IMG/VR virus record: IMGVR_UViG_3300010396_000050
Span: 1-56,786 of that record
Strand: one strand, 5' to 3'
Source of the DNA: a virus
Length of the DNA stretch: 56,786 nt
Shown here piece after piece: positions 1,950-28,641 of this stretch. Position 1 is the stretch's first letter. Each line of letters opens with the position of its first letter. The position numbers and the translations under genes are program-made. Below the pieces are notes generated by a model. That model was not told where the DNA came from, did not search any database, and was given only the letters and a program-made list of their open reading frames with translations.

Positions 1950-2575
1950 CAGACGGCCACCTGATGCTCAGAGGAGGTGGCTTTGAGCGCAATCCGTTCG
2001 AGCGCGTCAAGCTCATCGTTGGAGAGATTGCGAAGGCCATCCGGAATCCGGTGAACGTGATCGATTCTGCCGGAGTGGCGAACGTTGACGCTCGTATCCC
2101 ACTGACCGAGTTCCTTGGCAATCTGTTCCTGAATCGAACGGAGTTCCTTGAGCGTGGCGACGTCAACGGCTGCTTCGCGACTGATACTCTCGAGACCGAT
2201 CGTCTCTTTCGTCGCGATTAGCCCGGTGTGCTCACCCGGCGCCCATTGTCGTTCGGACTCCTGTGCGTAACTTCGGGCCTCAATGACCTGGAGAATCTTA
2301 TTGTGGAGATCGGCGAGAACCCGAATCCGTCCGGCCTTGGTGGCGACCGCTTCGTGGCGGATTGCTTCTGACGCCTCACCGATCAGTCCTTGAACGAGAG
2401 AGGCGAACGTCGGGTCTTTCTTCCAACGGTCAAGTTGACGTTGGGTGACACCGGCAATCTGCGCAATTTCACGGTCGGGGATCGTCCCATCGGCAAGCTG
2501 GGACGCCGCTCGATACTTACGTGCATCGACGGTAATCCTACTGACATTTGCTGACGTTTTGGGAGCGTCCGCCAT
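1949..2575 (-). CDS. terS: Terminase small subunit
   Basis: This 208-residue protein lies immediately upstream of terL and overlaps it by one base. An N-terminal helix-turn-helix (about residues 30-57, IPDREIAQIAGVTQRQLDRW) fits the DNA-recognition domain that binds the packaging site. A helical middle (about 60-170) suits oligomerisation, and the C-terminal tail may contact TerL. Position, size and HTH support the call. The packaging site itself was not identified. Confidence 0.82.
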   Translation of the reverse strand: MADAPKTSANVSRITVDARKYRAASQLADGTIPDREIAQIAGVTQRQLDRWKKDPTFASLVQGLIGEASEAIRHEAVATKAGRIRVLADLHNKILQVIEARSYAQESERQWAPGEHTGLIATKETIGLESISREAAVDVATLKELRSIQEQIAKELGQWDTSVNVRHSGRIDHVHRIPDGLRNLSNDELDALERIALKATSSEHQVAV

Positions 2576-2631
2576 CCGGGAATCCGAGCACGATAAGCCG
2601 CGTCTCCCCCGAGTCGTAAGTAAAGTATAGC

Positions 2632-2877
2632 CTATCGGTCACCGTCGGACGATTGGCTGAGGTCATCAAGTTCCGCTTTCCCGCGCAAGACATCGGTGAC
2701 GGTGCGCAGATCAGCCATCGCCCGGTAGAGCATGTCGCTGACGGCGATCTCCTGACCCGCTGGCAGGTCCAGAGCGCGCAGCAGGTCACGCGCCTGACCG
2801 TTGAGCCGTTCGGCCTCCTCCACGAGCGCCTTGGCCATCCTGCGACGTTCTACTGGGTCACGGCTGCTCCCTCGCAT
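2632..2877 (-). CDS. Small helical protein, unknown
   Basis: An 81-residue, highly charged, mostly helical protein (MAKALVEEAERLNGQARDLL in its first half). It has no membrane segment and no recognised family. Its 5' end overlaps the end of the preceding gene by 20 bases, which supports membership of the early operon. A start at the internal Met at base 2838 is also possible. A 56-bp gap with a TATACT hexamer separates it from terS. Confidence 0.6.
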   Translation of the reverse strand: MRGSSRDPVERRRMAKALVEEAERLNGQARDLLRALDLPAGQEIAVSDMLYRAMADLRTVTDVLRGKAELDDLSQSSDGDR

Positions 2878-3160
2878 CCCGGATGATCTGCTCGGCGGCG
2901 CTGACGTGTCCGGTTACCTGCCTGTCGAGGTAGCTATCGACCTCACGCCAGATTGATCGGATCACCTCGTTTTGGTCAGCGTGTGGGGAGTCGGCCCACT
3001 GGTACAGCACGCTCTCAATACCGACAAGCATGTCGTCCTCTTCTTGATCGTCGGTCGCATCAATGCAGTTCTGAAAGAACCAGGTACTGAATCGGGCAAT
3101 GTCGTCATGAGTTCCGCCGCGATAGGGGAGATGCTTGTTGAGTTCAGCAGTCAGTCCCAT
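2858..3160 (-). CDS. Hypothetical protein with a paralogue at 27.1 kb
   Basis: This 100-residue protein starts at the ATG that overlaps the TGA of the preceding gene (TGATG). Its core, FSTWFFQNCIDATDD...GIESVLYQWADS...EVIRSIWREV, matches the rightward gene at 27149-27424 (FSSWFFM...GVESILYQWGDF...EIVTSIRQEL). The two are therefore divergent paralogues carried in different transcription units. Function unknown. The aromatic, acidic, helical composition suggests a small soluble protein. Confidence 0.7.
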   Translation of the reverse strand: MGLTAELNKHLPYRGGTHDDIARFSTWFFQNCIDATDDQEEDDMLVGIESVLYQWADSPHADQNEVIRSIWREVDSYLDRQVTGHVSAAEQIIRDAREQP

Positions 3161-3498
3161 CACCCCGCCTCCCCGCTTCCAATTGTGGCGAATCTGCCAC
3201 AATTAGCATGCTCACGCAACCACGCGGCCAGCTCTTTCGCCCGGAGCTCGTCGTAGTTGTCGCATAAGGCATCAACGTGTTCCTCCGCCTCCCGCGCCAG
3301 CTCCTCGATCACGCGTCGCCGTTCGTCGGCCCGTTCTGCCGCCACCTGCTCCCGGTACGCCGGGTTGCTCTGCCAGAGATTCATCATTGGTGCTGCCTCA
3401 CGTTGCTGCTGAAGCCAGACATCGGACGGCAGACCATCGGTCATATCCGGCGCGATACCGACAAGCTCAGATGGATGGATTCGTTTCTTGTTGCTCAT
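3160..3498 (-). CDS. Small hypothetical protein with charged helical C-terminus
   Basis: A 112-residue protein starting MSNKKRIHPSELVGIAPDMT. The start at 3498 is chosen because it overlaps the stop of the upstream gene (TGATG), while the longer frame before it is R/P-rich and unlike coding sequence. Residues about 50-100 form a charged helix (EQVAAERADERRRVIEELAR) that probably makes a coiled coil. The family was not recognised. It overlaps the next gene's start by one base. Confidence 0.65.
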   Translation of the reverse strand: MSNKKRIHPSELVGIAPDMTDGLPSDVWLQQQREAAPMMNLWQSNPAYREQVAAERADERRRVIEELAREAEEHVDALCDNYDELRAKELAAWLREHANCGRFATIGSGEAG

Positions 3499-3764: not shown

Positions 3765-4000
3765 CCCAAGTCCACCAGCGTGATCCGTGCGCCCATCCGT
3801 GGCCCGCTGTGGTGGATGCCAAGGTCCGGGTTGGTGGACAGGTCAGTGAACCAGATCGTCTTTTGGCCACGATCGTTCGGCTCGACACGGATGCCGCGCA
3901 ACGGTGGACCGTTGGGACTGGTAGCGGCAAACTCGTCCATCCATCTCTCGTACCACGAAAGCGGTTGATCTTGGATCAGCGGGTCGTCGTGCTGGGTCAT
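3731..4000 (-). CDS. Small hypothetical protein
   Basis: An 89-residue acidic protein (MTQHDDPLIQDQPLSWYERW) with alternating hydrophobic strands around IRVEPNDRGQKTIWFTDLST. It overlaps the upstream gene by four bases (ATGA type) and the downstream gene by 34. No recognised domain. Confidence 0.6.
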   Translation of the reverse strand: MTQHDDPLIQDQPLSWYERWMDEFAATSPNGPPLRGIRVEPNDRGQKTIWFTDLSTNPDLGIHHSGPRMGARITLVDLGWSREAVRGMR

Positions 4001-4344
4001 GCGGCCCGCCTTTCTGCTTCGTCGGCCAGTACGGCATTCATCAGCGTGTAGAACGAACTGTCTCGCAGGGACGGCGTGTTGGCCCGGAAGACCCGCCAGC
4101 CGAGTGCCTGTGCGAGATTGATCTTCTCACTGTCTCGCAGCATACCGTTCAGACTGTTGTGCCCCGGCCCGGTGATCCCATCGTATTCGATCGCGATCTT
4201 TGGGACAGTCCAGCAAAAATCGAATCTGAACCGGCGCACCGGGTGAAAGCGCACCTCAGTGGTCAGCTCCCAGTCAAGCCCGAACGACTGCGGGGCGTAG
4301 GCGAGATACGTGTGCAGGTCGGCCTTGTAGTCCTGCTTACTCAC
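3997..4344 (-). CDS. Putative PD-(D/E)XK-type endonuclease
   Basis: A 115-residue protein with the core of a restriction-endonuclease-like fold: EVRFHPVRRFRFDFCW, then a strand ending KIAIEYDG, then a helix with K (DSEKINLAQALGWRVFR). The spaced acidic residues (D of FDF, E and D of IEYDG) fit metal-binding positions, and the last strand (WRVFR) is typical of VRR-NUC/DUF559-like nucleases. Inferred role: structure-specific or nicking nuclease in replication or recombination. It is in the middle of the early operon. Confidence 0.65.
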   Translation of the reverse strand: MSKQDYKADLHTYLAYAPQSFGLDWELTTEVRFHPVRRFRFDFCWTVPKIAIEYDGITGPGHNSLNGMLRDSEKINLAQALGWRVFRANTPSLRDSSFYTLMNAVLADEAERRAA

Positions 4345-5314: not shown

Positions 5315-6624
5315 CACTTGCCCTCCCGGTCCCGGAGCGCGCTGACGGCGTCGTCGTAGTCCTTGATCAATGAGCGCAATACCGTTTTCGACATCGAATC
5401 GAGTCCAGCGCCTGGATCGTCGGCAATATCCACAATCTCATCTCGTAAAGCAGCCGCCGCCTCCAGCACCCGCGTCACCGCGTCGTCGGCGCTCGGGGTC
5501 GGCTGCGGCTGCCGGGAGAATTCGCCATGAAAGTGCGTCATGTGATCGCGCTCCCACTCCTCGATCATGACCAACCCTTGATCGATGTAAGCCTTTTGCC
5601 CATCCATCCGCGCGGCCAGTTCGTCAAGGCGCTTGTCGAATGTGGCATCGGCTTCATGGAGCGCGTAAACCTCGCAACCAAGCTCGTCATCCAGCATGCC
5701 CAAATCCACATGCAACCCGTTGATCCGCTTCTCGTGCTGCTCGATGCGTTCGTGGTGCGCGTACTCGGTGGACGAGTCGGCGTCTATAGAGGTGCTATGA
5801 ACGCTATGAACGTCTTTAGCCGCGTTCTTAGCGTTCATAGCCTCATCTTCCGCAACTCTCCGGGATTCCCGGAGAGTTGGATCGGCGTCCGGCTGAAGCG
5901 GTATCGTCCACCGCATGCCGTTCGGACCACGGCGGTACACCCATCCGTCTTCCGTGATCTCGGCGTCCGCTGGCATCTTTCCGCAGTGGGGGCAACCACC
6001 GTCTTCGTTGGCGTCAGGAACAGGGTAGTCGCAGACACCCGTAGCATGGCAGTACGGACACGTAGATATCGGCTCTTCGATATCCGCCTCGGACTCCCCA
6101 CCCCGAATCTTGCGAAGCAGTGCTGCCTGATCGCGTTTGATCGCGTACTTCAGCGGACCGACTTCCGACTCCTCGGCGTCTGTTGGAGGGGTGGCGGCAT
6201 CGAATCTCCTGATTGCCCCATGAATCTCTGTCGCTTCATCACTGCTTTCCGGTAGCGCGTGTAGGAGGTACGCCATATCACGGCGCAGCTCCCTCCCCGC
6301 CGCCACCTGTGCCGTCAGCCGCGCGTTCTCGGCCCGAAGATCGCCGCATTTGGTGTCGCTGTTGTGCGAAAGGTTGTAGTAGGCATCGCGTTCGACACGA
6401 ATGGCGGCGAGGTCGCTGGTCAGCCGCGCGTTCTTGTCGATCTCTTCTTTGCGCCAGGTAAGCAGGTTGGCGCGATCCTCTTTCAGCCGCGCGATTTCGG
6501 CGTCCTTCGGGGCTAGCAGTTCGGCTTCGATCAGATCAAGGTTATTCCCGCCGACGGAGTAGATCGATAGCGGGTTGTGATTGTTCATTCGGTACGGGGT
6601 CATCAAGTCTCGCAGCTTGCTCAT
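5314..6624 (-). CDS. Large coiled-coil protein with a zinc-ribbon
   Basis: A 436-residue protein. The N-terminal half is a coiled coil (about residues 30-145, many K/E/R heptads). It is followed by a zinc-binding block, CPYCHATGVCDY...GGCPHCGKMPADA (about 190-220), with two CxxC pairs, and then a second coiled coil (about 285-345). The layout suggests an elongated oligomeric protein that binds nucleic acid or metal. The early-operon position argues against a structural role, but the function is not known. It overlaps neighbours by four bases and one base. Confidence 0.65.
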   Translation of the reverse strand: MSKLRDLMTPYRMNNHNPLSIYSVGGNNLDLIEAELLAPKDAEIARLKEDRANLLTWRKEEIDKNARLTSDLAAIRVERDAYYNLSHNSDTKCGDLRAENARLTAQVAAGRELRRDMAYLLHALPESSDEATEIHGAIRRFDAATPPTDAEESEVGPLKYAIKRDQAALLRKIRGGESEADIEEPISTCPYCHATGVCDYPVPDANEDGGCPHCGKMPADAEITEDGWVYRRGPNGMRWTIPLQPDADPTLRESRRVAEDEAMNAKNAAKDVHSVHSTSIDADSSTEYAHHERIEQHEKRINGLHVDLGMLDDELGCEVYALHEADATFDKRLDELAARMDGQKAYIDQGLVMIEEWERDHMTHFHGEFSRQPQPTPSADDAVTRVLEAAAALRDEIVDIADDPGAGLDSMSKTVLRSLIKDYDDAVSALRDREGK

Positions 6625-9098: not shown

Positions 9099-9644
9099 CT
9101 AGGCGACGCTGGTGAACGGCACCACCTGGTCGATAAGCGGCGCCTGAACGAAGGTCTCACGAGCATCCTTGAGTTCGGATGTCCACGCGCCATAGCGAGC
9201 GATCTCGGCGGTGAACGCCACGACCTCCGGCGATCGAAGCGCCGGCTTCGCGGTTTCGGGATCGATATCCGCGCGCATCAATTGCGAGAACATGAGCGCT
9301 TCGAACTGCATCGCGTTCAGCGCGAGGTCACGGCTGTTGTCGGCGGCGACCCAGATCACGAACTGGTACCCATCGAAGAAGGTCAGAAGTGCCGGCGCGA
9401 GCACGGTGCGTCCCAACGTGAGCCGACCGCTTGCCTTGCCGCCGGCGCGCTTCCAGAGATAGGCGATTGACGCGGTGGTCAGATGTGCGAGTTCCGGGCA
9501 TTCGGCGATCAGATGCTGCCCGATGCGATCTATCTCCGGCGCCGGAAGGAACGGAATCGGTTCGTCGTTTTCGTTGACGAACGCGTTGTCTACGGGCGGG
9601 ACGATGCGGAACGAGCGGGTGATGTCGTGGATATTGCTGGTCAT
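9099..9644 (-). CDS. Putative metal-dependent or structural early protein, unknown family
   Basis: A 181-residue protein starting MTSNIHDITRSFRIVPPVDN. The start at 9644 overlaps the upstream stop by four bases. The middle (GKASGRLTLGRTVLAPALLTFFDGYQFVIWVAADNSRDL) has the strand-helix rhythm of putative-metallopeptidase or phage DUF proteins, but no HExxH is present. It lies directly after a helper gene and the primase-helicase, so a replication accessory role is possible. Confidence 0.55.
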   Translation of the reverse strand: MTSNIHDITRSFRIVPPVDNAFVNENDEPIPFLPAPEIDRIGQHLIAECPELAHLTTASIAYLWKRAGGKASGRLTLGRTVLAPALLTFFDGYQFVIWVAADNSRDLALNAMQFEALMFSQLMRADIDPETAKPALRSPEVVAFTAEIARYGAWTSELKDARETFVQAPLIDQVVPFTSVA

Positions 9645-11532: not shown

Positions 11533-12395
11533 GACGCCAACCCCAGCGGTCCCTTGCCGGATTTCGTCTCTGGCTCAACTTCGTCCTGCCAGTTCTGATC
11601 GCGAAGCCAGCGGTGCGGTGCCTTGACGTAGCCCTCTTGCCACTTCCGCGACGACTTCTGTGACGCGATCGCCGCGAGGATCGTTGCCTGGAGTTCGGCT
11701 GATGGCTTCAACCGGCGCCATTGGTCGACCGCTTGTTTTTTCTCGGCGTGTTTCGGGTATGCCAACCAGAACGCATCGAAGCCGTTCGGTGGTGCCAACG
11801 CGGTAGATAGATCTTGTTCTTTTGGTTTTAGTTCTACTGGTTCTTGTTCAACCCGCTGTGGACGGGTACTCAACCCGCTGTCAGCGGGTACCTGACCCGC
11901 TGACAGCGGGTACGTTACCGTTGGTGCCGGGTGCGTACCCGCTGTGGACGGTATGCGTTCGTTCGCACTATTCCGCTCGGGAAACTCAACGATACCGTTG
12001 TCAGCGGGATGCTTTTTCCCGGAATAGTGATGAACGAGTACGTATTGGTTGGAACGCTTGAATCCGTTCGATTCGCGTTGGTCGATGCGGATAATTTCGA
12101 GCATAGCGAGTGCCTTTACCGCTCGGGTCACGTGGTCCTCGGACCACCCGGTATCGTCTGCGATCTTCTTGAGAGATGGGTAGGCGACGGCTCGATGATC
12201 GGCATAGGAAGCGATCGCCTGGTAGACGGCGACAAGCACCCCCTTGGCAATCGGCTTCCGTCCGTCGCCCACATCGATCGGCCCGGTGATCGTCCGGAAG
12301 ACGGCCGGGATCAAGACGAACCCGGTATCAAATCCGACAGGTGGAGCGTCATATGCCGCTGGCTCTTCGTCGTGGACCATCCGTAATGCGCTCAT
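11526..12395 (-). CDS. Replication initiator with winged HTH (origin inside gene)
   Basis: A 289-residue protein. Residues about 40-120 form a winged-helix domain (AYPSLKKIADDTGWSEDHVTRAVKALAMLEIIRID). A linker (about 125-200) is encoded by the repeat array at 11851-12010. The C-terminal part (about 205-275, FDAFWLAYPKHAEKKQAVDQWRRL) is typical of phage O/DnaD-like initiators that recruit helicase. As in lambda O, the origin appears to lie within the initiator gene. The start overlaps the HNH gene stop (ATGA). Confidence 0.82.
   Translation of the reverse strand: MSALRMVHDEEPAAYDAPPVGFDTGFVLIPAVFRTITGPIDVGDGRKPIAKGVLVAVYQAIASYADHRAVAYPSLKKIADDTGWSEDHVTRAVKALAMLEIIRIDQRESNGFKRSNQYVLVHHYSGKKHPADNGIVEFPERNSANERIPSTAGTHPAPTVTYPLSAGQVPADSGLSTRPQRVEQEPVELKPKEQDLSTALAPPNGFDAFWLAYPKHAEKKQAVDQWRRLKPSAELQATILAAIASQKSSRKWQEGYVKAPHRWLRDQNWQDEVEPETKSGKGPLGLASW
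11803..12010. repeat. Iteron array and AT-rich segment: putative replication origin
   Basis: Six copies of an ~18-bp repeat of the form ACCCGCTGT(C/G)(A/G)(G/A)CGGGTA start at 11851, 11873, 11895, 11917 (degenerate), 11937 and 11994 (degenerate). The first four are spaced exactly 22 bp. Several copies are themselves palindromic (ACCCGCTG/CAGCGGGT). The adjacent 11803-11850 stretch (TTGTTCTTTTGG, TTAGTTCTACTGG) is AT-rich relative to its surroundings and could melt. The layout of iterons plus AT-rich block inside the initiator gene is that of lambda-type origins. Inferred, not shown. Confidence 0.7.
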
Positions 12396-20550: not shown

Positions 20551-20603
20551 CATCACGTTGCCGTGATGTGGCGGTTTGCGCGCCGCCGTTGGGGTGTGAC
20601 CCC
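20551..20603 (-). other. Run of three hairpins between the third motif copy and the terminator
   Basis: On the minus strand: GGGG/CCCC (20591-20603), GGCGG/CCGCC (20570-20587), and CATCACG-GCAA-CGTGATG with a GNRA-type loop (20551-20568). They follow the third copy of the GGGTTGA motif. This may be the structured end of the Y RNA precursor or a further Y-like RNA lacking a tRNA-like module. Confidence 0.45.
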
Positions 20604-20607
20604 TGGA

Positions 20608-20859
20608 GCAGGAACTCGAACTCATCAACCCGGCAGAAGAAGTCTCGTGTGACGCTGGATACGGAAGTGAGACGGGGGTTTACGCGCTCTGCCATTGAGC
20701 TACATCCACCGAAGCGGATGACGGGATTCGAACCCGCAACCACGTGCTTAGCAGGCAATAACCCGAACTCGTCAACCCAGCGATTGATTCGCGAGTATGT
20801 CGGATGCGTGTGTGGCACGGGGGGATTTGTGTCAAGCAATAACCCCAAGCCTTCAACCC
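20608..20859 (-). repeat. Three copies of a 24-nt GGGTTGA...GTT motif
   Basis: Minus-strand copies at 20836-20859, 20755-20778 and 20608-20631 share GGGTTGA, a central G(G/A)(C/G)TT(G/C)G and GTTATTGC or GTTCCTGC at the end. The middle copy is the 5' strand of the Y RNA stem. The upstream copy can pair with AATCCCC and GCC at 20814-20832 to form a simple hairpin. Repetition at this locus suggests a protein-binding strand, perhaps for Ro. Confidence 0.6.
20644..20795 (-). ncRNA. yrlA: YrlA-like Y RNA with permuted tRNA-like module
   Basis: A noncoding RNA partner for Ro. In RNA order the minus strand gives: stem strand CGCUGG (20782-20777), GACG, GGGUU; T arm with loop UUCGAAU (stem GCGGG/CCCGU); acceptor strand CAUCCGC, tetraloop UUCG (20713-20710), acceptor strand GUGGAUG; UA; D arm GCUCAAUGGCAGAGC (20700-20686); then AACCC, CGUC, CCAGCG closing the stem. 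CUCG/CGAG extends it to 20795/20644. The T arm preceding the D arm with a capped acceptor stem is the fold of bacterial YrlA tRNA mimics. It lies directly downstream of the Ro gene. Confidence 0.8.
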
Positions 20860-20868
20860 GACACGTCC

Positions 20869-20874
20869 ATTATA
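20869..20874 (-). promoter_or_regulatory. TATAAT element overlapping the Ro stop codon
   Basis: Minus-strand GGTATAATGG: the TAA of this hexamer is the Ro stop codon. It would start RNA near 20863, just before the first GGGTTGA motif. No good -35 is visible, so this is weak alone. The same GGTATAAT precedes the tRNA-like cluster at 28.6 kb, also immediately after a stop codon. Confidence 0.45.
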
Positions 20875-22438
20875 CCTGACCGCTCAGGAAAAGGGCGAGC
20901 GTGCGCGGGACCGACGCGTCCATGCCTACAAGGTCCATCTGGCGCGGGTCGCTCGGATCCGCAATTGAAATCTCGTTCGTGGCCATCGCGAGCACCGCGT
21001 GCCGGAACGCCGGGCGCGTCGCCTGAATCTCCGTGATCCGGTGCAACCCGTAGCGACTTGGCCACGTCTCGCTGTCGGTGATACTCACGACCGCCGAAAC
21101 CTCAGGATCGCTCATCGCCGCCGTGAGCGGCAGCGAACAGTCGGTGCCGCCTCCCTGAATGCGGCCAAGTGCTTGTCGAAGCTCGTCATAGCCCTCACCG
21201 CGAACCTCCAGGTGGTACGCGCGGTTCTCGTACGCCATGAACGTCGCATTCGGAAACTGGTACGCGAACACGAGCGCTAGGGAGGTTTCTGCGTCGACAC
21301 AGGTCAGATGCGTGCCGGATGCGTTGCCGTATGTCATGCTCCCCGATACGTCAAGCGCGATGAGGGGCGTCTGGTCCGGATAGATTTCCAGCCCTGTGAA
21401 CGCCTCCCCGAATCCTTCCGCCAACGCGGTCGAGATGCGACTGTTCGGCGTCCACGTCAACGAACCCTTGATGCCACGCCCGGCATCGTAGACCGAGCGA
21501 GCGAGCAGAAATTCGAACGGATGACAGACTTTCGTCGCCCCGTGAATCTTGCGAACGATGAGGTCTACCGAATGCTCGTCATCCATCCCGAGGGATGATA
21601 GCTTGCCAAGATTGCGCAGGAGCGCGCGACCCGGCATGTCCGGCAGCAAGGCGCGCCAGACGGCTTCGTGCCCGAGGAGTGGCCCCGGTACCATCTCGCG
21701 CGGGAGTCGCGCCGACGTGATCGCTTCTGCCGCTTGCTCCGGGGTGATGTCATCGCGTCGCAGTGCGGAATAGCCGACGAACAACCGGGACGCGTGGCTG
21801 TCGGTGAGCAAATCCGCCTCGAACGTCGTCCGCTTGTCCGGATGAGCGATCCAGTCGAAGATCAACGCATGGTCCGAGGATGGCGCCGTCGGACGTGCAA
21901 GGCGCAGCGCATCCCGGAGGGACCACCCGTCGCGCTGATCGTACTTGACTGCCTGGAGCGCGAGAACGTCCGGTGTGCGCATGGTGAACCATCGACTCAC
22001 GGCACGGCGGAACGTCCGATTGCTCTTGCGATCCGCGAAGCGATACCCAAGCCAGTGCAGCAGGTCAGTCCCGATCCGGCACACCTCCGCGACCGCCTCC
22101 ACCGCCTCCCGCTTGACCGCGAGATCAGCACTGCGCGTGAGTGCCGCGAGGACGTAGATTGCCGGGTCAATGCGGAGCGCGAGATTGCCACGCGAGACCT
22201 CGATCACCATATCGAGCGCCGCCCGTGGTTGCTCGTGAATGACGCGCTGAATGGTCTCGTCAGCCCCCTTTGTCACGTCGTAGCCGGTGGCGTAGAACGT
22301 GCCGGTCGATCCCAGGATTAGGAATCGGCGCAGGTGCGTGAGCGGATCAACGCGATAGACGTCGCCTCCCTCATTGCTGAGGACCGTTCCGTTCGCGCGT
22401 GCATTGGCCTGTCGAAGAAGAATAGCGTTCTGGCTCAT
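20870..22438 (-). CDS. rsr: Ro60-like TROVE/vWA RNA-binding protein
   Basis: A 522-residue Ro homologue. The TROVE domain is a ring of HEAT-like helices (about 25-345; LTHLRRFLILGSTGTFYATG, then VIEVSRGNLALRIDPAIYVL, GLEALLPDMPGRALLRNLGKL-like segment near 260-280) that binds misfolded RNA ends in its hole and Y RNA outside. The vWA domain has a complete MIDAS: DVSGSM (363-368), T432 in GGGTDCS, D455 in SITDSE. GGAGCGATGA lies ahead of the ATG. In bacteria Ro works with Y RNA and exonucleases in RNA decay and rRNA maturation. Length matches the family. Confidence 0.93.
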   Translation of the reverse strand: MSQNAILLRQANARANGTVLSNEGGDVYRVDPLTHLRRFLILGSTGTFYATGYDVTKGADETIQRVIHEQPRAALDMVIEVSRGNLALRIDPAIYVLAALTRSADLAVKREAVEAVAEVCRIGTDLLHWLGYRFADRKSNRTFRRAVSRWFTMRTPDVLALQAVKYDQRDGWSLRDALRLARPTAPSSDHALIFDWIAHPDKRTTFEADLLTDSHASRLFVGYSALRRDDITPEQAAEAITSARLPREMVPGPLLGHEAVWRALLPDMPGRALLRNLGKLSSLGMDDEHSVDLIVRKIHGATKVCHPFEFLLARSVYDAGRGIKGSLTWTPNSRISTALAEGFGEAFTGLEIYPDQTPLIALDVSGSMTYGNASGTHLTCVDAETSLALVFAYQFPNATFMAYENRAYHLEVRGEGYDELRQALGRIQGGGTDCSLPLTAAMSDPEVSAVVSITDSETWPSRYGLHRITEIQATRPAFRHAVLAMATNEISIADPSDPRQMDLVGMDASVPRTLALFLSGQV

Positions 22439-24320: not shown

Positions 24321-25523
24321 TTAGTCGTCTTTCGCGCGGCTGTCGCCCTTGACCGTGCGGAGCGGTCGGAGCGTGTGCACGATGTCGATCAGGTCTCTCT
24401 GGCGACCGATCACGGTCGCGATGTCCTTGTAAGCCCCAGGTGCCTCGTCAAGCTGGCCCTTCGTGATCGTCGTGAACGTGGCAGCGTCTTCCAGCTCGAT
24501 GTTCACCAGATCGACGTCGAACGTCTTCTTGGCGACATTGCGCCCCATCTTGCGACCGGCACCATGCGAGCACGATGCGTAGCTGTCGAGGTTCCCCTTG
24601 CCATGCACGATGTAGCTCGTCGATCCCATGCTGCCGGGGATGATGCCGATGCTCGACGCTCCGGCATCCGTCGCACCCTTGCGATGCAACACGATGCCGT
24701 GATCCTCCGGCCCATCGAACTCGGCATAGTTGTGCATGCAATCGAACGTATCGATCCGGTCCACCGGAATCCCGATCGCCGCCTCCAATGCGCGGACCAA
24801 TTGTTCGATCATCCACATCCGGCTCTCACGTGCGAACGCCATCCCCCAGTTCATGTCATGCATGTAGTCATGGGCGGCCTGTTCATCGAAGCTCAGTGAG
24901 GCGAGGTCCTTCGCCACTTTGACGCCCCGCTTCTCGGTCTCTGCAACGGCGAGCGTGTGGTAATAGCGCGCGAGCTGGTTTCCGGTCCCACGCGATCCCG
25001 AGTGCACCATGAGCCAGATAGCGTCTTCCTCGTCCACTTGTGCTTCGAGGAAGTGATTGCCGCCGCCAAGGGTGCCGAGTTGCGCGGGCCCCTTGCGGAG
25101 CATCGTGTCTTGGAGGGCATCCGCGCGGAGCGACATCTCGAAGAGCCAGTGATGCTCCCGCGCCGGATCCGCTGTACGGTGTGCCTCGAATCCGGTCGGG
25201 ATGCGTTCATTCACTTCGCTTGCCCATGCGTCCCAGAAGTGCTGACCCATCCCCGGATCGAAGTCGATGCTCGTGCGAACGGCTTGCATTCCACATCCAA
25301 TGTCAACGCCCACCGCGTTCGGGATGACGACGCCTTCGGTGGGAAAGACGCAGCCGATCGGGACACCGAAGCCGCCGTGTGCGTCGGGCATCAATGCGAC
25401 GTGGTCACTGACTTCTGGGTGGTTCGCGACGTTGATGACTTGTTCGACCGCCATCGCGTCAAGCTCGTAGTCGGGTACCCACATCTTCACAGGGACACGG
25501 GTCTTCGCGCTGAACTCAATCAT
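24321..25523 (-). CDS. rtcB: RtcB-type RNA-splicing/repair ligase
   Basis: A 400-residue GTP/Mn-dependent ligase that joins RNA 2',3'-cyclic phosphate or 3'-phosphate ends to 5'-OH ends. Metal and nucleotide motifs are complete: DAHGGFGVPIGCVF (47-60), VGVDIGCGM (71-79, D74 and C78), GGGNHFLE (153-160), MVHSGSRGTGN (172-182), HNYAEF (264-269), and SCSHGAGRKMGR (317-328) with H320 as the guanylylated nucleophile. AAGGAG stands eight bases before the ATG. Length is normal. It shares the operon with Ro, a pairing known from bacterial RNA-repair loci. Confidence 0.96.
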   Translation of the reverse strand: MIEFSAKTRVPVKMWVPDYELDAMAVEQVINVANHPEVSDHVALMPDAHGGFGVPIGCVFPTEGVVIPNAVGVDIGCGMQAVRTSIDFDPGMGQHFWDAWASEVNERIPTGFEAHRTADPAREHHWLFEMSLRADALQDTMLRKGPAQLGTLGGGNHFLEAQVDEEDAIWLMVHSGSRGTGNQLARYYHTLAVAETEKRGVKVAKDLASLSFDEQAAHDYMHDMNWGMAFARESRMWMIEQLVRALEAAIGIPVDRIDTFDCMHNYAEFDGPEDHGIVLHRKGATDAGASSIGIIPGSMGSTSYIVHGKGNLDSYASCSHGAGRKMGRNVAKKTFDVDLVNIELEDAATFTTITKGQLDEAPGAYKDIATVIGRQRDLIDIVHTLRPLRTVKGDSRAKDD

Positions 25524-25540
25524 TGGTATGTCTCCTTGTG

Positions 25541-25562
25541 GGCCGCCCGTGTGAGCGGCCCG
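25541..25562 (-). promoter_or_regulatory. Hairpin in the rtcB leader
   Basis: GGGCCGC/GCGGCCC stem just ahead of the rtcB ribosome-binding site, with no T-run. A similar GGGC-rich hairpin lies after rtcB at about 24287-24307. These may set mRNA stability or translation of the ligase gene. Confidence 0.35.
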
Positions 25563-25578
25563 TGCTGAATACCAGGCG

Positions 25579-25827
25579 TCAGAACGGAAAACCGTCGTGC
25601 GTCGCGGCAATCTCCGTCGTGAAGATCCCCATCCCTGCGAAGACCTGCTCGCGCGCGTCCTCGGCGCCGCATCGTTGGCAGCGGTCCGGCGTGTCCATCT
25701 CGCTCCAGCAGAGGGCTTCGCGACCGCACCGCTCGCAGCGGTAGTCCGCGCACTCCAGCCAGTCCATATCCACGTCGTCCGCGTAGCCCTGCGTGTCGTC
25801 GTCGTCCATCCATGCGTTCATGCTCAT
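25579..25827 (-). CDS. Small zinc-ribbon protein
   Basis: An 82-residue protein starting MSMNAWMDDDDTQGYADDVD. Acidic N-terminus followed by YRCERCGREALCWSEMDTPD and RCQRCGAEDAREQ, a CxxC...CxxC ribbon. The start at 25827 lies next to the upstream stop. Likely metal-binding and protein- or RNA-interacting. It sits directly before rtcB. Confidence 0.65.
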   Translation of the reverse strand: MSMNAWMDDDDTQGYADDVDMDWLECADYRCERCGREALCWSEMDTPDRCQRCGAEDAREQVFAGMGIFTTEIAATHDGFPF

Positions 25828-28090: not shown

Positions 28091-28131
28091 GCACGAGAGA
28101 CCGGACGTTGATAGCGTCCGGTCTCTCGTGC
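28091..28131. terminator. Long hairpin between converging transcripts
   Basis: 17-bp perfect stem (28091-28107 with 28115-28131, GCACGAGAGACCGGACG and complement), loop TTGATAG. No T-run on either side, so termination efficiency is uncertain. It could also be an RNase III-type processing site behind the tRNA-like cluster. Confidence 0.6.
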
Positions 28132-28134
28132 AGT

Positions 28135-28258
28135 TGATGGCAACAGGATTCGAACCTGCGGCGATTCGACCATTGGGTATCTGGCCCCCGTCGAAACGCT
28201 AGCCAGTAAGAGACGGGCTCATCCGTCATTCAGCGTTAAACCACTCCGCCAAACCATC
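28135..28258 (-). ncRNA. Irregular tRNA-like element, enlarged between D and T arms
   Basis: Minus strand: 5' acceptor GATGGTT, D arm GCG-GAGUGGUUUAA-CGC, T arm GCAGG-UUCGAAU-CCUGU (28159-28143), 3' acceptor UGCCAUC, flanked by UU/AA that extend the stem. Between the D and T arms are 72 nt, against about 35 in class II tRNAs. These include GACGG-AUGAGC-CCGUC (a 6-nt loop holding GAG) and a CUGGC/GCCAG hairpin capped by UUCG. Canonical arm order, but no proper anticodon arm. It may be a decayed tRNA-Leu, or a tRNA mimic. Confidence 0.5.
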
Positions 28259-28415
28259 AACCACGTTGCCTGAGAACCCAAGGCCTAGCCGGACTGGATA
28301 CCGGCCCGCCGGGAATGCACCCAACGCCTACAACCACGGGAAAGACGTGGACTTCCGTCTTGGTGGTCTCATGTCTGCCGGCGTAGAGACCAACCGCCGC
28401 GTGCCTCGGGCACGG
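28259..28415 (-). other. Structured spacer between tRNA-Thr and the irregular tRNA-like element
   Basis: No gene. The minus-strand transcript can form GTGCC-CGA-GGCAC, GGTCTC/GAGACC, CCACG/CGTGG and GCCGG/CCGGC hairpins. This is probably an extended structured RNA or the processing spacer of the tRNA-like cluster. Confidence 0.4.
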
Positions 28416-28487
28416 AGCCCCTCACAGGAGTCGAACCTGTACCCGGCTGTTTACAAAACAGCTGCTCTGCCTTCGAGCTAGAGGGGC
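28416..28487 (-). tRNA. tRNA-Thr (anticodon UGU)
   Basis: A complete cloverleaf: acceptor GCCCCTC/GAGGGGC (7 bp), TA, D arm GCTC-GAAGGCA-GAGC, anticodon arm GCTGT-TTTGTAA-ACAGC with anticodon TGT, variable CGGGT, T arm ACAGG-TTCGACT-CCTGT, discriminator T. CCA is not encoded (TCCG follows). Its 5' end is only three bases after the second permuted tRNA-like module, so both come from one precursor. Confidence 0.93.
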
Positions 28488-28490
28488 AAA

Positions 28491-28559
28491 GCGGACGGCT
28501 TGCCATTCGCCTACATGGCCCAAGGGCCACGCCCGGATTCGAACCGGGAATCTTCCGCC
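28491..28559 (-). ncRNA. Permuted tRNA-like module 2 (CUUG-capped)
   Basis: RNA order on the minus strand: anticodon-stem strand GCGGA (28558-28554), variable AGAUU, T arm CCCGG-UUCGAAU-CCGGG, acceptor CGUGGCC, tetraloop CUUG (28524-28521), acceptor GGCCAUG, UA, D arm GGC-GAAUGGCAA-GCC, G, anticodon-stem strand UCCGC (28495-28491). Every stem pairs (acceptor 7 bp with one G-U, anticodon stem 5 bp), while the anticodon loop is left open. The fold is a tRNA cut at the anticodon and closed at the acceptor end, as in YrlA RNAs. Confidence 0.82.
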
Positions 28560-28560
28560 T

Positions 28561-28626
28561 GACGGCGCCTGACCGATCGGCCATCCCGCTTTCGCCAGAC
28601 CGGGAGTCGAACCCGGCTACTCCGTC
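28561..28626 (-). ncRNA. Permuted tRNA-like module 1 (GAAA-capped)
   Basis: Immediately upstream of module 2, two bases apart: GACGG (28626-28622), variable AGUAG, T arm CCGGG-UUCGACU-CCCGG, acceptor UCUGGC, tetraloop GAAA (28593-28590), acceptor GCGGGA, UG, D arm GCC-GAUCGGUCA-GGC, G, CCGUC (28565-28561). The anticodon-type stem GACGG/CCGUC is perfect. The six-pair acceptor has one G-G mismatch. A TATAAT (28641-28636) seven bases upstream would start the RNA right at this module. Confidence 0.78.
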
Positions 28627-28635
28627 CTGTGACGA

Positions 28636-28641
28636 TTATAC
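28636..28641 (-). promoter_or_regulatory. TATAAT element for the tRNA-like cluster
   Basis: Minus-strand GCGGTATAATCG, directly after the stop codon of the upstream membrane-protein gene. No consensus -35. Expected RNA start near 28629, at the edge of module 1. It matches the GGTATAAT context found ahead of the Y RNA at 20.9 kb. Confidence 0.5.

Follow-up and report, generated by a model that had tools for sequence, protein, structure and literature searches.

On the minus strand of a viral genome, directly in front of a real tRNA gene, we found two back-to-back tRNA cores that are turned inside out, with neither an anticodon loop nor an open acceptor end, and the same tandem arrangement recurs in many unrelated phages with matching base-pair changes. 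The structure is well supported by comparative evidence, whereas its function is inferred, and our favored reading (probability about 0.45) is that the pair is a standalone noncoding RNA, a "twin tRNA mimic", which acts in trans on host tRNA-binding enzymes. The window analyzed is a stretch of 56,786 nucleotides (IMG/VR record IMGVR_UViG_3300010396_000050), a virus record with an integrase, lysis and tail genes. The features that are important for the interpretation are the following.

28635-28640, minus strand: TATAAT −10-like element; the predicted start of transcription falls at or 1-3 nt before module 1.
28561-28626, minus strand: permuted tRNA module 1, with closing stem GACGG/CCGTC, T arm, 6-bp acceptor helix capped by GAAA, and D arm.
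28559-28560, minus strand: 2-nt linker AG between the modules.
28491-28558, minus strand: permuted tRNA module 2, with closing stem GCGGA/TCCGC, T arm, 7-bp acceptor helix capped by CTTG, and D arm.
28488-28490, minus strand: 3-nt spacer TTT to tRNA-Thr.
28414-28487, minus strand: canonical tRNA-Thr(UGU) (ARAGORN; Rfam RF00005, 61.5 bits).
28135-28258, minus strand: 124-nt tRNA-like element of normal topology with an enlarged, non-canonical anticodon/variable region, probably on the same transcript.
28091-28131, minus strand: perfect 17-bp hairpin with a 7-nt loop and no U run, a candidate end of the RNA transcript.
24321-25610, minus strand: RtcB RNA ligase (PF01139, E 1.5e-97).
20870-22438, minus strand: Ro60 (Rsr) protein with TROVE and vWA_Ro60 domains.
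20682-20745, minus strand: third permuted module, the tRNA-like domain of a conventional Y RNA with a basal stem, 3' of ro60.

Read from 28626 to 28561, module 1 is GACGG AGTAG [CCGGG TTCGACT CCCGG] TCTGGC [GAAA] GCGGGA TG [GCC GATCGGTCA GGC] G CCGTC, and from 28558 to 28491, module 2 is GCGGA AGATT [CCCGG TTCGAAT CCGGG] CGTGGCC [CTTG] GGCCATG TA [GGC GAATGGCAA GCC] G TCCGC. Each module keeps canonical tRNA marks, namely a TTCRANN T loop, U8, a D loop with GG, and one base between the D stem and the anticodon-type stem. The acceptor helix of module 1 has one G-G mismatch, while the module 2 acceptor pairs at 7/7 positions with one G-U. No anticodon loop is present, as the closing stems lie 2 nt apart. 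To determine whether such modules could arise by chance we analyzed 60 dinucleotide-shuffled windows, in which no module scored ≥34 and no tandem pair scored ≥28 each, as compared to 35.5 and 41.5 for the two adjacent modules of the window. The closing stems pair only with their own partner (5/5, as compared to 3/5 and 2/5 when swapped). Single-sequence MFE folding prefers another fold (z −2.1) and did not recover the modules, and the structure therefore rests on homology and covariation rather than on MFE. The 5' GGACGG can also pair with CCGTCC at the end of module 2, but this breaks the D stem of that module. An ordinary tRNA spanning the promoter region and the T arm of module 1 (6/7 acceptor complementarity) was not supported by any tRNA model.

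These results confirm a preliminary description made from the sequence alone, which had proposed two tandem permuted modules without anticodon loop or obvious Ro-binding stem, fused to tRNA-Thr. Two corrections are needed. First, to the description this looked like a new arrangement, but the same stemless pair recurs in many viruses, sometimes with identical spacing to tRNAs. Second, it missed that the window also encodes Ro60, RtcB and a proper Y-RNA cluster, so its comparison with Y RNA has real context, although the other viruses with stemless pairs that were searched lack Ro60.

To look for relatives we scanned IMG/VR with patterns based only on sequence motifs and spacing. T-loop spacing alone also caught closely packed ordinary tRNAs and tRNA-plus-Y-RNA pairs, which we separated by hand and with ARAGORN, and one pattern, TAGCNCAN{24,33}, was too loose and mostly caught unrelated matches. 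Besides the window, at least 17 distinct stemless tandem pairs remained at the loci (numbered here with the prefix L) L075, L164 (same element as L493, Rhodopseudomonas pseudopalustris DSM 123), L169, L172, L361, L179, L184, L378 (same element as L441, Pygmaiobacter massiliensis), L381, L383, L506, L511, L515, L517, L524, L530 and L531; L514 and L539 look like two more by eye. The linkers are 0-5 nt and often purine-rich (AG, AAA, AAAA, ACAA, ATT), and the AG linker of the window is also found in L172, L361 and L383. L172 and L361 sit between tRNA-Lys and tRNA-Trp with 1-3 nt spacers; just beyond tRNA-Trp in L172 there is an Rfam tmRNA match (2616-2695, minus strand, 51.9 bits), possibly a fragmentary or split tmRNA. 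Among annotated phages, Microbacterium phage BAjuniper (OQ938582, on Microbacterium foliorum) has the same layout in an unannotated 145-nt gap: tRNA-Pro 2904-2993, 1 nt, module 2995-3063, AA, module 3066-3135, CCT, tRNA-Asn 3139-3213. Recovery from isolates and independent metagenomes rules out an assembly artefact. In contrast, blastn of the tandem region found only tRNAs, a Ro60 protein search of viral contigs for close relatives of the window gave nothing, and neither did megablast of 25 kb of the window against phages. In Mycobacterium phage Rey a single stemless permuted module with a 6-bp closing stem (1997-2072, plus strand) lies 2 nt after tRNA-Asn; Rey encodes RtcB but no TROVE.

The covariation test that the preliminary description named as refuting was passed in two forms. 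At fixed geometry, on loci chosen by sequence only and without regard to pairing, the permuted acceptor pairs in 22/34 for module 2 (shuffled 5.8, max 14) and 18/24 for module 1 (6.0, max 12), and the closing stem of module 2 in 16/32 (2.5, max 9), while the normal-topology anticodon stem occurs in only 3/30 (1.1). On 17 aligned tandem loci, the window's among them, RNAalifold without guidance returned precisely the two permuted modules, each with its own closing stem, and 29 of 38 pairs show kept double changes. The covariation score is 0.560, as compared to 0.152 (sd 0.016) for shuffles and at most 0.133 for slid structures, and the closing stems covary at all four positions in both modules. 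The loci in this second analysis had been filtered by a pairing-aware parser, which inflates the percentage paired; the fixed-geometry test is free of that. These data also bear on whether the modules are relics of normal-topology tRNAs or debris from tRNA-array recombination (including att-site fragments), read as permuted because of chance or duplicate acceptor stems. Tandem ordinary tRNAs with related acceptors do mimic permuted modules and gave many false hits, and in L172 the middle piece also matches Rfam tRNA. However, the normal reading requires the inner stems to pair, which they do not (in the window, CCGTC vs. GCGGA), and in its simple form this explanation is refuted; overall we consider it very unlikely.

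The modules share the tRNA-like domain of the bacterial Y RNA YrlA (Rfam RF02553), with T arm, capped acceptor helix, D arm and closing stem in permuted order. Module 2 alone weakly matches YrlA (22 bits against a gathering score of 69), but as the module adjacent to ro60 also falls below this threshold (38.7 bits, E 9e-7), the score is not decisive. Just 3' of ro60, at 20600-20874 (minus strand) and preceded by a TATAAT box (20869-20874), there are three tandem Y-RNA-like units with the shared Ro-stem-like motif GGGUUGAnG...GGUUAUUG (the third has GAGUUCCUG), of which only the middle one carries a permuted module. The same kind of cluster stands before Ro in phage Magritte, and 339 phage records carry a Ro60 homologue. 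At 28491-28626, on the other hand, no Ro-stem sequence motif was found, no flank helix exceeded chance (longest 6 bp, shuffles mean 7.0), and the TATAAT box 8 nt before module 1 leaves no room for a 5' strand.

In this phage Ro60 and RtcB are encoded nearby, and we cannot exclude the possibility that the pair is a Y-RNA variant, working as the effector part of a Ro ribonucleoprotein with Ro60 binding the RNA without the usual basal stem or through another RNA of the cluster. A locus that supports this is L379 (2376-2520, plus strand), a Ro60-encoding virus in which two tandem modules are enclosed by a 10-bp basal stem (TGTCGAGAGA/TCTCTCGACA) followed by a T run, possibly an intermediate between Y RNA and stemless pair. 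Nevertheless, we regard a Ro-linked role as unlikely, since the pair lies 6-8 kb from ro60 with its own probable promoter and, among the virus records with stemless pairs that were searched, including BAjuniper, TROVE was found only in the window. Most viral records are fragments, and absence of Ro60 or Band-7 is therefore weak for any single record. Single modules with long outer basal stems (ACAGCAA-type, or CGGAGA...TCTCCG-type) were seen 20-30 nt after a tRNA at the viral loci L044, L071, L107, L116, L371, L372 and L364, L370, L373, L382, and are apparently further Y-RNA families in phage tRNA arrays.

A second group of related RNAs was found in bacterial chromosomes, where 97 of 120 hits of the tandem pattern have an SPFH gene within the 8-kb locus. 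These RNAs (e.g. in L440, L409, L420, L407, L417, L424 and L400) consist of tandem tRNA-like modules of about 65 nt in permuted order with short linkers, and appear to correspond to the SPFH-linked tRNA-like molecule of Burroughs and Aravind (2016). They lie next to SPFH (often RtcB) and are longer, and their last module often ends in an intact anticodon stem-loop (Lys UUU, Ile GAU, Asn GUU and others), which could serve as bait for anticodon nucleases. The viral pairs have no anticodon loop and no Band-7 gene (0/22 records including the window), and the conserved 5' motif of the SPFH-linked RNA gave only a chance-level match in the window. No gene family is shared next to three or more of the viral tandem loci. 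We therefore assign the pair neither to the Y RNAs nor to the SPFH-linked RNAs; it differs from YrlA by its tandem modules, lack of a basal stem, fusion to a tRNA and occurrence in other viruses whose searched records lack Ro60, although an earlier description of tandem modules cannot be excluded.

The 3' half precedes the 5' half also in the circularly permuted tRNA genes of red algae and archaea, and as an RtcB ligase is encoded in the window we considered whether the modules could be matured by circularisation into working tRNAs. This is highly improbable. Permuted tRNA genes rebuild a complete anticodon loop, which cannot be built here with 2 nt between the modules and 3 nt to the tRNA, and the acceptor ends are sealed by tetraloops with no CCA or processing space. 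Moreover, RtcB is absent from 16/16 viral records with such RNAs, and from BAjuniper.

We also considered a cis-acting role, where the modules form a structured 5' leader that protects the pre-tRNA or tunes its processing by recruiting RNase P or blocking 5' exonucleases. In line with this, the pairs are fused 1-3 nt from real tRNAs in the window, L172, L361, L378, L531 and BAjuniper. However, many tandem pairs have no tRNA nearby (L164, L169, L075, L184, L383, L381, L511, L517, L524), in L184 the pair is followed by a terminator-like hairpin with no tRNA, and a leader would not need two covarying tRNA cores, making this explanation unlikely.

Taken together, the best explanation is an RNA of about 140 nt in which the chain enters and leaves each core through the anticodon-type stem, while the acceptor helix is sealed by a tetraloop. 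Probably it is transcribed from the TATAAT promoter as the 5' leader of pre-tRNA-Thr and freed when RNase P cuts at the tRNA 5' end, and with a 2-nt linker the two anticodon-type stems can stack end to end. Promoter, release and stacking are inferred without expression data; the TATAAT is one of only 4 exact matches in the 57-kb window (2.5 expected), which by itself is weak, and neither a consensus −35 nor a classical terminator was found. For the 124-nt element further downstream, with extended acceptor pairing (GUUGAUGG/CCAUCAAC) and two extra hairpins in place of a normal anticodon arm, no homologue was found in phages. Nested RNAs in L100 (11351-11464, plus strand) and L093 (~6420-6570, minus strand), in which the anticodon loop of a tRNA-like outer fold is replaced by an inverted permuted tRNA core sharing the anticodon stem (in L100 with three perfect 5-bp helices), would be circular permutations of the same H-shape.

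With T loop, D loop and acceptor-T stack intact but no CCA end and no anticodon loop, the RNA cannot be charged, decode, or be cut in an anticodon loop, but it can bind enzymes that grip the tRNA elbow. The most likely role is thus a trans-acting decoy or adaptor for such host proteins, candidates being PNPase, tRNA-modifying enzymes or a tRNA-targeting defence nuclease, although no target protein has been identified. This is consistent with published data on the YrlA tRNA-like domain, which binds PNPase and is a substrate of DusA and TruB (PMC8394870), and which is not cut by the Salmonella anticodon nuclease and was proposed as its competitive inhibitor (PMC7790460). Phage tRNAs are known to counter tRNA-targeting defences (PMC10264068, PMC11555353), and the array neighbourhood makes a counter-defence context plausible, but those are functional tRNAs with altered or intact anticodon loops. 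It is possible, although doubtful at present, that the tandem and nested forms represent a distinct, unnamed class of phage noncoding RNA, spread across unrelated phages without any protein partner and acting as a counter-defence decoy for tRNA-targeting host enzymes.

Phage tRNA arrays are annotated with tools that cannot see permuted modules, so this RNA is invisible or miscalled as a tRNA. Annotated tRNAs in the records of SM23 (tRNA-Asn, 11983-12049), Magritte (tRNA-Arg, 9422-9498) and prophiGD43A-5 (tRNA-Thr, 3957-4035) overlap Y-RNA permuted modules and look misannotated. A covarying, recurrent pair of anticodon-less tRNA cores is a concrete candidate for RNA-based counter-defence or for takeover of host RNA decay or modification enzymes, and it also suggests that the tRNA-like module known from Y RNAs is used without Ro60.
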